From contig JAJXWW010000085.1 in the NCBI GenBank assembly GCA_021781415.1, forward strand, positions 80,661-144,660: 64,000 nucleotides of DNA. Reading direction: 5' to 3'. This DNA is from Planctomycetota bacterium. GTDB taxonomy: Bacteria; Planctomycetota; Planctomycetia; Gemmatales; Gemmataceae. Each line of letters opens with the position of its first letter. Within the stretch, counting starts at the first letter, position 1. The notes beneath the pieces were generated by a model. The model was not told where the DNA came from and ran no database searches. It saw nothing but the letters and a program-made list of their open reading frames with translations. Below, one piece after another: positions 45,284 to 50,214 of this stretch. A program made the translations under genes and the position numbers.

Positions 45284-47050
45284 TCACGGTCGCGTCTCGG
45301 TGGTGGGGATCGGCGAATACAAACGCACATCGACGCGCTGGGCTTTCGAGAGATCGATGCCTTCGTGGGCCAAGTCGAATTCCAAGCGCGGCTCTTCGCT
45401 CAGTTGTAGGGGCAGGCGCACCGCGAAAGTACTGCCCCGACCCAGTTCGCTTTGGAGCGTGACTTCTCCACCGAGAAGTTTCGATAGCTCGCGGACGATC
45501 GATAGACCCAGGCCGGTGCCGGCGTGTTGGCGCGTCAATGGATTGCCGGCTTGTCGGAACTTCTCAAAGATCATTTCCTGTTCCTCCCGAGCGATGCCGA
45601 CGCCCGTATCGCTCACGGTCAGGACGATGAAGCCGCCGCCATTCCAGCGGACGCCCGCCGCGGTTGTCGAGGGCGGAGCGGTCATCGGATCGACCTCGGC
45701 TTTCAATTGCACGCGCCCCCCTTCCGGCGTGAACTTGATGGCGTTGGACAGCAGATTCGACAGGATCTGTTGGATTTTTACCACGTCTTGGCGCAGAAGG
45801 GGGATGTCCACGGCGAATGTTCCGCGCAGGTCGATGTTTTTCTTCTCGGCCATGGGACGAAACATCGCCAACATGCCCTCGCACACATCTTGTATCTGAA
45901 ACTCGACCAAGCGAACCTGCATTTTTCCCGCTTCGATCTTCGCCAGATCGAGAATATCATTGATCAGATTCAATAATTGTTGACCGCTCGATTGAATGTT
46001 TGTCACCCAGCGCGTTTGTTTGTCGTTCAATCCGTCGTTCGACAGCAACACTTCGCTGAAGCCGAGAATCGAATTGAGCGGCGTTCGCAATTCGTGGCTC
46101 ATCGTGGCCAAGAAGTCGCTTTTCAAACGGTTCGATTCGTACAAGGCCATGTTGGCTTGTGCCAACTCATCGACCTTGCGATCGAGATCGGCATTCACTC
46201 GACGCAAGCGATCCTGCATACTTACAAGATTGCGCAACATGCGATTGAAGGCATGGCTGAGATCCTCAAATTCGTCGCCGGTTTGAATTTCGCTGCGCAC
46301 GTTCAATTCGCCGGCGCTGATGGCATCGCTGACTTCCTTCAAATGTTTGACCGGCTTCACGATGACGTAGCGGACGATCAAATAGCTGCCGAGCATAATG
46401 AGGAACGTCGTGGCGAAAGCGATGGAGATTAGAATGGCGCGATTGGTATGAAAGCCGTTTTCGATGGGCTGTGTATCGACATCGAGTTTGACCACGGCCA
46501 ACAGATCGCCTTCTTGCAGGTCGGCGTTGCGTTGGCGGTGACAGGACAAACACGACTCGGTGGCGCGAACGGCTCCATAATAATAGTTATGTTTTCTCGA
46601 TAGATCGAGATAGTTATCCTCGTATTTATTCGGATCGCTCTGAAACGATTTGATGCGCTCCAAGGTTGTGGTGTCGGGAATGTCCGGCGAGCGCGTGGCA
46701 TTGGGTTTGATGATCTCGGCGCGAAACTTGAATGGCAGGGGCCATTCGTTTTCCCATTGCGCGCGGAACTCCTTCATCGCTTCGTCGAGCGCCTCGGTCG
46801 CGGCGGGGCGATCCTTCTCGCGCGGTCGACCGGGACGACACCCCAATGCCAACTGTTGATCGACGATCTCGTTGACGAGGAGACGGCAAGCGGTTTTAAT
46901 CTGATCGTAGGCCAACGACTCGGTCTGCCAAGAGTACAGTCGAAAGCTGCCGGTCAACAACAATACAATAATGGCACCGAATAGGTAGCGGAACTTGCGC
47001 TCCAGTCGATACTCGCCCAACAGACGTTTAACCGAACGATACCACGACAT
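45284..47050 (-). CDS. Sensor histidine kinase with DUF3365-like heme-binding sensor domain and HAMP
   Basis: ESCLSCHRQ (CxxCH), HAMP VKPVKHLKEVSDAISAGELNVRSEIQTGDEFEDLSHAFN, HisKA FLATMSHELRTPLNSILGFSE, N-box LLSNAIKFTPEGG, GTGLGLSIVRELSKLLGG. Confidence 0.92.
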   Translation of the reverse strand: MSWYRSVKRLLGEYRLERKFRYLFGAIIVLLLTGSFRLYSWQTESLAYDQIKTACRLLVNEIVDQQLALGCRPGRPREKDRPAATEALDEAMKEFRAQWENEWPLPFKFRAEIIKPNATRSPDIPDTTTLERIKSFQSDPNKYEDNYLDLSRKHNYYYGAVRATESCLSCHRQRNADLQEGDLLAVVKLDVDTQPIENGFHTNRAILISIAFATTFLIMLGSYLIVRYVIVKPVKHLKEVSDAISAGELNVRSEIQTGDEFEDLSHAFNRMLRNLVSMQDRLRRVNADLDRKVDELAQANMALYESNRLKSDFLATMSHELRTPLNSILGFSEVLLSNDGLNDKQTRWVTNIQSSGQQLLNLINDILDLAKIEAGKMQVRLVEFQIQDVCEGMLAMFRPMAEKKNIDLRGTFAVDIPLLRQDVVKIQQILSNLLSNAIKFTPEGGRVQLKAEVDPMTAPPSTTAAGVRWNGGGFIVLTVSDTGVGIAREEQEMIFEKFRQAGNPLTRQHAGTGLGLSIVRELSKLLGGEVTLQSELGRGSTFAVRLPLQLSEEPRLEFDLAHEGIDLSKAQRVDVRLYSPIPTTETRP

Positions 47051-48001: not shown

Positions 48002-48119
48002 GGCTCACCTCTTCCTTGGCTTTCTCGATAGAATTATAAAACATGGGGCGCGTTCGCACCACATCGGTTCGTCGAGCGGTACTGGCACGGTCCCGCTCGC
48101 GCAGTCCGCGAGGAGCAAC

Positions 48120-49790
48120 ATGAGCGACAAACTCGATTCTCTGATTCGTTATCTCGATCATTTAGAATGCCGGGCTTCGTTGAAGGAATTGACCGCGCAG
48201 TTGCGGCGACTGGAAATCGACGACCGCGACGTGGCAGAATTTATACGCTTTGCCGATCCGTCGTATCAGCGCGTGCTGGTGCGGGCGAAACGCTGGTATC
48301 ACCTATGGGTTCTGTGTTGGAAGAACGGACAACGTTCGCCGATCCACGATCATCTCGGTTCGAGTTGCGGCGTGCGCGTCCTCCGCGGCACGGCCACCGT
48401 TACCGATTGCGTCTTCGCAGCCAACGGCTGCGTCAAGGCGGTCGGTTCGCGCGATTATCCTGCTGGCAGCGTCTTGGCCAGCGAAGACGACGACCTCCAT
48501 CAATTCTCGAATCTCCAGGACGGCGGAGCGGACTTGGTTACTCTGCACGTCTATTCGCCGCCGCTTCGACGCATGGGCGTTTACTCGTTGACCGACCGAG
48601 AGCGCGGCGAGGAGGCCTGGCAAGAATCGCGCAAGATGGTCACGGTATCGCCGGAGAACAGCGAGACGCCTCTGGAAAGCATTCAAGGCTGGGTGACCCC
48701 CAACCGGCTCTTTTTTGTCCGCAATCATTTCGAGACGCCGGCGGTCGAACCGGCGTCGTGGCGGCTGCGCGTCGAGGGATGCGTCGAGCGACCCGTGGAG
48801 TGGACGTGGGAGCAGCTGTTGGCCTTGCCGCACCGCAGCGTATTCGCCACGGTCGAATGCGCCGGAAACGGACGGTCGTTTCTGCAACAGAAAGCTGCCG
48901 GCGTACAGTGGGGGGCGGGAGCCGTCGGACATGCCGAATGGACGGGCGTACCGCTGTCCCGCGTGTTGGAGGAGTCTGGGCTAAGTTCCGATGCGGTGGA
49001 GGTGCTTTTCGAGGGCAGCGATCGCGGCAGCGAGACGGATCATCCGGAGCCAATGCACTTCGCCCGCAGTCTGCCGTTGGCCAAGGCACTGGACCGCGAT
49101 ACCCTGTTGGTCACGCGCATGAACGGCGAGTTGCTGAGCGCGAGCCACGGCTTTCCCTTGCGGCTCTTTGTGCCCGGCTGGTACGGCGTGGCCTCGGTGA
49201 AATGGCTGCGACGCATCGAAGTGCTGAACCGGAGCTTCCACGGCTATTATCAGAGCGTCAAATACACGGTGCGTCGTTCGTCGCCCAACGGTCTTGAATC
49301 GGTCGTGGTGGGGCCGATGGCGGTCAAGTCGGAATTGATCCGACCGGCGGAGGGGGCGGAGTTGGGCATCGGCACCAATCGACTTTTCGGCGTGGCCTGG
49401 GCCGGTGAAGAGGCGGTCGATCGAGTCGAAGTCAGCACCGATGGGGGCGAAACGTGGAATTCCGCCGAACTGCTTGGCGCACAATCGGCCTATTGTTGGA
49501 CGCCGTGGGAATATCTGTGGGAGGTCGCCGAGCCGGGCGAATACACTCTGCTGACTCGCGCCGTTTCCGAAGGTGGTCGCGTGCAGCCGTCGCGCCACGA
49601 TCCGCTTAACGGCGGCTATCTCATCCATCATAGTCGACCTATCGCGGTACGAGTCCAAGCCGGAATCACCGCGCTGTCCGGTCGAGTCGATGCCGAGACG
49701 TTGCTGTACGACATGAACGCCTACGCCGAGGAGAACCTGCGCCTTCCACTCGATGTCGAGCTGGAGTTCGCTGCCGGCGCGGGGATTTGA
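48120..49790 (+). CDS. Cysteine dioxygenase / sulfite-oxidase-like molybdopterin enzyme fusion
   Basis: N-term CDO cupin (SPIHDHLGSSCGVRVLRGTATVTD, DLHQFSN); C-term TVECAGNGRSFLQ, GAVGHAEWTGVPLSRVLEE, GYYQSVKYTV, VSTDGGETWNSAELLG. Confidence 0.88.
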   Translation: MSDKLDSLIRYLDHLECRASLKELTAQLRRLEIDDRDVAEFIRFADPSYQRVLVRAKRWYHLWVLCWKNGQRSPIHDHLGSSCGVRVLRGTATVTDCVFAANGCVKAVGSRDYPAGSVLASEDDDLHQFSNLQDGGADLVTLHVYSPPLRRMGVYSLTDRERGEEAWQESRKMVTVSPENSETPLESIQGWVTPNRLFFVRNHFETPAVEPASWRLRVEGCVERPVEWTWEQLLALPHRSVFATVECAGNGRSFLQQKAAGVQWGAGAVGHAEWTGVPLSRVLEESGLSSDAVEVLFEGSDRGSETDHPEPMHFARSLPLAKALDRDTLLVTRMNGELLSASHGFPLRLFVPGWYGVASVKWLRRIEVLNRSFHGYYQSVKYTVRRSSPNGLESVVVGPMAVKSELIRPAEGAELGIGTNRLFGVAWAGEEAVDRVEVSTDGGETWNSAELLGAQSAYCWTPWEYLWEVAEPGEYTLLTRAVSEGGRVQPSRHDPLNGGYLIHHSRPIAVRVQAGITALSGRVDAETLLYDMNAYAEENLRLPLDVELEFAAGAGI

Positions 49791-49833: not shown

Positions 49834-50214
49834 ATGGGCATGGAACAAACCGTCTCATTTGCTGGCAATTCGGTCCCTGCCTATGGGGCAGTGTGCGACT
49901 TCCTCGGTCAACGGGGGTTCGCGTTGCAGATGGGGATGATCGACGGTCAACTCGCCTTTCCCGATGAGTTGCCCCACGACGACTGGCTCGAACTGCGCCT
50001 TCGCACATCGCAGGGCATGGTCACGGTGCGGCGAGAGGGACAACGTCTCACGTTCGTCACCTGGGGCAATGCCGACGCGGCTGCCCGACAAGCCTGGAAT
50101 GCGCTGACGTGGGCGTTTGCGGAACTGGGGGACGGTCGCGTCGAATCGCCGGAAGGCTCGTTCGATGCGGCGACGTACCGCAAGCGCGTCGAACTGCCGG
50201 AGGCGTTGCGCTGA
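49834..50214 (+). CDS. Hypothetical protein
   Basis: Complete ORF following the CDO/SUOX fusion on the same strand; no family recognised. Confidence 0.5.
   Translation: MGMEQTVSFAGNSVPAYGAVCDFLGQRGFALQMGMIDGQLAFPDELPHDDWLELRLRTSQGMVTVRREGQRLTFVTWGNADAAARQAWNALTWAFAELGDGRVESPEGSFDAATYRKRVELPEALR

Follow-up and report, generated by a model that had tools for sequence, protein, structure and literature searches.

Fusion of Cysteine Dioxygenase with a Sulfite Oxidase-like Molybdoenzyme in Gemmataceae: Predicted Cytosolic Location and a C-terminal Tail Shared with CysH

The window, a stretch of 64,000 nucleotides from a Planctomycetota genome of 230 contigs (G000), contains a single intact and uninterrupted ORF at 48120–49790 on the forward strand that encodes 556 residues, in which a cysteine dioxygenase (CDO) is followed by a sulfite oxidase (SUOX)-like molybdoenzyme. 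We estimate a probability of roughly two in three that the product is a soluble cytoplasmic bifunctional enzyme of sulfur oxidation that arose by a single fusion, converts cysteine to its sulfinate and sulfite to sulfate, and carries a C-terminal tail for shared docking or control. As far as its sequence can tell, the best reading is that the fusion couples the oxidation that opens the catabolism of cysteine sulfur to the one that closes it. If so, it would be a natural one-polypeptide bracket of that pathway, from thiol to sulfate. Both enzymes were already known; their fusion is new as far as the open-access literature shows, in which we found no earlier report of a CDO-SUOX fusion or of the CysH tail described below. 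The substrates, electron acceptor, tail function, and physiological role discussed here are those that we infer for the protein.

Architecture, Distribution, and Origin of the Fused Gene

An initial annotation made from the letters of the DNA had proposed that CDO and SUOX-like domains share one ORF, and the single frame, Pfam matches, alignments, and structure prediction all agree with this (Table 1). Pfam CDO_I covers residues 30–156 (1.4e-12; 48 bits against a gathering score of 23), Oxidored_molyb covers residues 203–377 (1.3e-58; 197.7 bits), and the dimerization-type domain that had been suspected at the C terminus corresponds to Mo-co_dimer at residues 400–492 (2.7e-10; 40.8 bits), the last two also being above the curated cut-offs. 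No further domain exceeded its cut-off in the Pfam search of the 556-residue protein, cytochrome b5 included, so that the heme b domain of animal-type SUOX, for which a check had been advised, is not present. The predicted model of the fusion has an overall pLDDT of 89.4, which dips to about 60 at the linker, and its best structural matches in Foldseek are SorA, followed by chicken sulfite oxidase (SO) and then, for the other half, rat CDO. The start codon was set at 48120 because of the AGGAG sequence upstream and because the N-terminal Met-Ser is invariant in all seven fused homologues; a similar purine-rich stretch is found at the equivalent position upstream of most homologues. A longer frame from 47814 would add 102 codons that are antisense to an fpg/mutM-like gene and whose conservation is limited to the genus.

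Table 1. Features of the fused gene (positions in the window; residues of the 556-residue protein)
Feature	Positions	Strand	Evidence
Shine-Dalgarno-like AGGAG, 4 nt 5' of the ATG	48111..48115	+	Sequence
CDO-SUOX fusion gene, 556 residues plus stop	48120..49790	+	ORF, Pfam; kept in 7 genomes
CDO domain, residues 1–160	48120..48599	+	Pfam CDO_I, alignment with human CDO, conservation, Foldseek to rat CDO
Linker, residues 161–176, where unfused CDOs have a EPMFIEFCDAAGI-like C-terminal tail	48600..48647	+	Alignments
SUOX Moco domain, residues 177–377	48648..49250	+	Pfam Oxidored_molyb, SorA mutant chains, Foldseek
Residues 378–512, with Tyr382 and the Mo-co dimerization domain (Pfam 400–492 = 49317–49595)	49251..49655	+	
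C-terminal tail, residues 513–556, missing from other SUOX	49656..49787	+	Alignments, model
Shared C-terminal motif E-F-A-A-G-A-G-I, residues 549–556	49764..49787	+	Also on unfused CDOs and CysH

A search for the same two-domain architecture identified six additional genomes, all of them MAGs from differing projects that are labeled Gemmataceae, Gemmatales, Planctomycetia, or Planctomycetota. The homologue in G393 is 95% identical to the protein encoded in the window, and those in G411, G421, G466, G417, and G398 are 65–68% identical over all 556 residues. The Gemmataceae include soil and water bacteria, and the fusion is present in 7 of 102 Gemmatales genomes, representing 6 genera, and absent from the other 95. 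It was not found elsewhere among 392 sampled Planctomycetota or in 297 genomes of the phylum of an Acidobacteria MAG (G503), and the viral contigs that were searched gave no match to it. Between G000 and G393, dN/dS is 0.068 overall, with values of 0.05 for the CDO part, 0.06 for the SUOX part, and 0.051 for the junction. A frameshifted assembly joining two genes, which had been named as the way in which the annotation might fail, is excluded by the uninterrupted architecture in six more genomes, where the gene has other surroundings, together with this low dN/dS (0.07).

No conserved operon partners accompany the fusion, and its flanking genes differ between genera. An ORF of 126 residues with no Pfam match lies about 45 bp downstream (49834–50214, forward strand) and is kept in G393 and at no other fused locus. 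On the reverse strand, beside fpg, lies a sensor histidine kinase gene (45284–47050) whose product matches Tll0287 weakly, contains a CxxCH motif (SCLSCH), and is possibly a heme or redox sensor.

The SUOX tree places all fused sequences in a single clade (SH-aLRT 96), with the SUOX of G464 as sister; in that genome, CDO and SUOX are adjacent unfused genes. Both belong to a larger clade with support of 100, which a C-terminal extension with G-x-G-I at its end distinguishes from the sister clade and which is referred to here as the tailed clade. In the CDO tree, the fused sequences, the adjacent ones, and two other CDOs are grouped with support of 100/99, and a single fused clade is tolerated (p-AU 0.64). 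Unfused CDO and SUOX genes 10–15 bp apart occur at three loci, in G464 (about 10 bp), G397, and L071. Their products are orthologous to the two halves of the fusion (55–69% identical) but are made as two polypeptides that both end in a [GA]-x-G-I tail, whereas in the fusion a single tail stands at the terminus. The simplest history suggested by these sequences is a single fusion of two neighboring genes in Gemmataceae.

The absence of a signal peptide from the fusion was confirmed, the CDO domain occupying the place of an N-terminal signal in the fused proteins. Export signals were scored by a simple rule, a twin-Arg followed by a hydrophobic N terminus, and checked by eye; they are present in 37 of 39 SUOX outside the tailed clade as against 0 of 12 unfused members within it. 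Loss of the Tat signal is thus apparent in the tailed SUOX clade, for which a cytosolic location is predicted, and the fusion would have arisen within this clade after that loss. If this is true, these proteins would represent a bacterial sulfite oxidase of predicted cytosolic location.

The C-terminal Tail Shared with CysH

The fusion ends in E-Φ-x-x-G-small-G-I, a tail that it shares with the predicted cytosolic SUOX clade, the unfused CDOs of this group, and the CysH (APS/PAPS reductase) of Gemmataceae. When the tails are aligned from the end, Glu is found at position -8 in 12 of 19 SUOX, 14 of 20 CDO, and 12 of 15 distinct CysH tails; position -7 is hydrophobic, aromatic, or His, and position -3 is small in nearly all cases, with Glu in six SUOX. 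Ends of the [GA]-x-G-I type are rare, occurring in only 2 of 7,992 open frames of at least 80 codons in 1.43 Mb from two Gemmataceae genomes, namely the fusion itself and a probably spurious frame of 82 codons, which rules out a general tail of Gemmataceae proteins. A universal feature of CDOs was likewise rejected, the tail being present in only 2 of 20 further bacterial CDOs; a single origin of the tail in the CDO tree, which contains long branches, is weakly rejected (p-AU 0.034). In the fusion, residues 513–556 are predicted with low confidence except for one helix (residues 525–540), and this model is not biased by the CDO tails, since these had been cut off in its input alignment. In both structure models, pLDDT stays below 50 over the last 6–16 residues, and the tail was rejected as a structural part of CDO or SUOX.

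CysH first surfaced in a genome-wide search with the pattern F-x-x-[GA]-x-G-I-stop. Among the readable matches from 23 genomes, the recognizable genes encode only CDO, SUOX, the fusion, and one CysH, and the remaining open frames look like noise; the pattern demands Phe at position -7, and families with another residue there fall outside it. CysH ends in KKECGLHV[IV]E..G[GST]GI in all 15 Gemmataceae tested and in ECGLHGG[DA]GI in three Phycisphaerae that have a tailed CDO, the tail directly following the catalytic ECGLH motif (L323-L337, L339, L341, L342). Two Acidobacteria, one Verrucomicrobium, one Myxococcota, and one Planctomycetaceae have a CysH without the tail, as does a further Planctomycetota genome (G342), whose CysH ends in GSSGL. 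A gene for an Rrf2-family regulator lies 3' of cysH in G421 and G393, and an ATP-sulfurylase gene adjoins cysH in G417.

CDO, SUOX, and CysH have three unrelated folds, and each of them handles sulfinate or sulfite. Because the end is invariant, appears disordered, and is found on unrelated folds within one area of metabolism, it resembles a short linear motif for recognition. To judge from these features, the tail probably either docks CDO, SUOX, and CysH on a partner that they share or marks them out for joint control. More tentatively, and at slightly less than even odds, it may be an undescribed tag for cytoplasmic sulfinate and sulfite enzymes that serves a common scaffold or regulated turnover and needs a free C terminus; such a tag would span the different folds of CDO, cytosolic SUOX, and CysH, both in Planctomycetota and in certain further phyla. 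The replacement of the CDO tail by a linker in the fusion, with only the terminal copy kept, is what would be expected if a free C terminus is needed. Were the tag reading true, the fusion would be an extreme form of an enzyme set that was already co-localized or co-regulated, and its internal CDO tail would necessarily have been lost.

A different account of both the fusion and the tail is that the former is a neutral accident of adjacent co-regulated genes and that the latter was spread by recombination between neighboring sulfur genes. The closely spaced unfused pairs described above and the restriction of the fusion to 7 of 102 Gemmatales genomes agree with this account, and CDO and SUOX genes that lie side by side could exchange their 3' ends. 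The SUOX tail may descend from a CDO tail by recombination, although CysH has the same tail at other loci. Persistence of the fusion across six genera and down to 65% identity, with dN/dS of 0.05–0.06, and the invariance of G-x-G-I within a disordered tail also weigh against a passive origin, which we consider unlikely.

Tailed genes were found in several other settings. In an Acidobacteria MAG (L078:2016-4167), the gene for a tailed cytosolic SUOX is transcribed divergently from that of a distantly related, tailless CDO homologue (28% identity), and at L076:2992-5466 a tailed SUOX gene is followed by moeA, the gene for Moco insertion. A Phycisphaerae MAG (L083:2986-4876) has a tailed CDO gene followed by that of an ordinary Tat-type SUOX from another clade and is an independent CDO-SUOX neighborhood. 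Tailed SUOX genes without an adjacent CDO gene occur in G481 (L047/L064), G480 (L046), and G477 (L048); G481 has a tailed CDO of another branch elsewhere in its genome. Unfused tailed CDO genes of Phycisphaerae adjoin a gene for a PF03601 (YeiH-like) transporter (L086, L087-L089), and at the Myxococcota locus L093 the CDO gene is followed by a cysteine-synthase-like gene and then a PF03601 gene. Apart from the fusion, G398 encodes an unfused tailed SUOX and an unfused tailed CDO, the gene for the latter being followed by one for a pyridoxal-dependent decarboxylase (L063:5769-8131), possibly a cysteine sulfinate decarboxylase of the taurine branch.

Active Sites of the Two Halves

The HxH sequence and later His of a CDO-type cupin that had been noted in the initial annotation are the iron ligands: His76, His78, and His127 correspond to His86, His88, and His140 of rat CDO and are invariant in all 26 CDO sequences aligned. 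Cys83 and Tyr145, the equivalents of the cross-linked pair Cys93 and Tyr157, are likewise present in 26 of 26, and Arg51, equivalent to the carboxylate-binding Arg60, in 25 of 26. The second-sphere Ser-His-Tyr motif, of which His143 is part, reads Thr-His-Tyr in every sequence (Thr141, His143, and Tyr145 for Ser153, His155, and Tyr157). A profile of this CDO clade matches mammalian CDO at 1e-27, whereas its matches to ergothioneine dioxygenase, Bacillus subtilis CDO, and 3-mercaptopropionate dioxygenase are no better than 1.2e-13, and the Foldseek ranking, in which mammalian CDO is closest, is concordant. The CDO half is, by these residues and profiles, of the mammalian type with its active site intact.

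The CDO_I superfamily holds several activities toward other thiols, and solved 3-mercaptopropionate and ergothioneine dioxygenases are among the matches, so that the dioxygenase half might take 3-mercaptopropionate, mercaptosuccinate, ergothioneine, or cysteamine while the SUOX half clears the resulting sulfite. The replacement of Ser by Thr in the Ser-His-Tyr motif and the His at the position of Arg60 in one fused homologue (G466) would fit such a substrate. Nevertheless, the profile and fold are far nearer to mammalian CDO, the Arg60 equivalent and the Cys-Tyr pair are otherwise conserved, and unfused relatives adjoin the cysteine-synthase-like and decarboxylase genes mentioned above, which together make another thiol improbable and leave cysteine as the favored substrate.

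In the SUOX half, catalytic residues were mapped via the solved mutants of SorA, whose Arg55, His57, Cys104, Arg109, and Tyr236 correspond to Arg201, His203, Cys247, Arg252, and Tyr382 of the fusion. Cys247, which is the Moco-ligand Cys of the TVECAGNG sequence picked out at the start, and Arg252 are conserved in 46 of 46 SUOX sequences, so that the iron and Moco ligands for which an alignment had been recommended are all present. The fold matches SorA with a Foldseek E of 9.5e-40, but the scores against the NCBIfam models for SorA (225.9 bits, cut-off 600), SorT (206.7, cut-off 570), and SoxC (252.6, cut-off 420) miss the curated cut-offs. The W-N motif is missing from the clade, and the position of chicken Arg450 (in WNLR, the second sulfate-binding Arg of animal SO) aligns with Gly; this column has Ala in SorA, and Arg is therefore not a defining residue there for the bacterial enzymes. 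Given the missed cut-offs and the missing W-N motif, the SUOX half was assigned to a separate subfamily, and its substrate pocket may differ from those of known sulfite oxidases. These same differences, in a fold that also includes SoxC, nitrate reductase, and MsrP, would suit a Moco enzyme for another S or N oxide or for sulfinate directly, a function that is nonetheless quite improbable in view of the five SorA catalytic residues, the structural ranking of SorA and chicken SO, and a partner domain whose product is a precursor of sulfite.

Proposed Pathway and Comparison with Known Enzymes

In the proposed pathway, the Fe(II) cupin half would convert L-cysteine and O2 to cysteine sulfinate, with a thioether between Cys83 and Tyr145 that would be self-made, as in animals. 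Transamination of cysteine sulfinate releases sulfite (PMC7711302), and a free class I aminotransferase would carry out this step, giving β-sulfinylpyruvate and then pyruvate and sulfite. Since the transamination is absent from the protein, the fusion brackets the pathway and is not a channel for consecutive steps. A look for a sulfinate transaminase, as had been advised, yielded 16 class I/II aminotransferase matches in the genome. The Mo-pterin half would then oxidize sulfite to sulfate at its site of production, shielding the cytoplasm; MoaC is present in the source genome. In the absence of both a heme domain and a periplasmic cytochrome, the electrons of the Mo center would most likely pass to O2, as in plant SUOX, or else to another cytosolic acceptor. 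Oxygen is favored because plant SUOX uses it and because animal SUOX becomes reactive with O2 when it lacks its heme domain (PMC10574614). The fusion would be of benefit by clearing sulfite locally in a cytoplasm where CysH also makes it. Cytosolic oxidation of sulfite alongside CysH might amount to a futile cycle, which counts against the main reading. The tail is a lead on how the making of sulfite by CysH and its oxidation by SUOX are kept apart within one compartment.

The CDO half resembles mammalian CDO1 (PF05995; 3ELN, 6BGF) in its fold, three-His iron site, and equivalents of Arg60, Cys93, and Tyr157, and differs from it in being fused to SUOX and in having Thr at the position of Ser153. 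Bacterial CDOs have been described as having an unmodified Tyr and the Cys-Tyr pair as eukaryotic (PMC8050391), whereas the present bacterial clade retains the Cys partner of the Tyr; the cofactor pair would thus extend to a clade of bacterial CDOs. SorA of Starkeya novella (2BLF) is periplasmic and partnered with a cytochrome c subunit, SorB. It shares with the fusion the SUOX fold, the Mo-ligating Cys, and the equivalents of Arg55, His57, Arg109, and Tyr236, but the fusion lacks a signal peptide, begins with a CDO, and ends in the tail. Plant sulfite oxidase (1OGP) is similar to the fusion in that it has no heme domain and is not periplasmic. It also bears a C-terminal targeting tripeptide, PTS1 (PMC10574614); however, the plant enzyme is peroxisomal and unfused, and its terminal SNL is unlike the G-x-G-I of the Gemmataceae protein.
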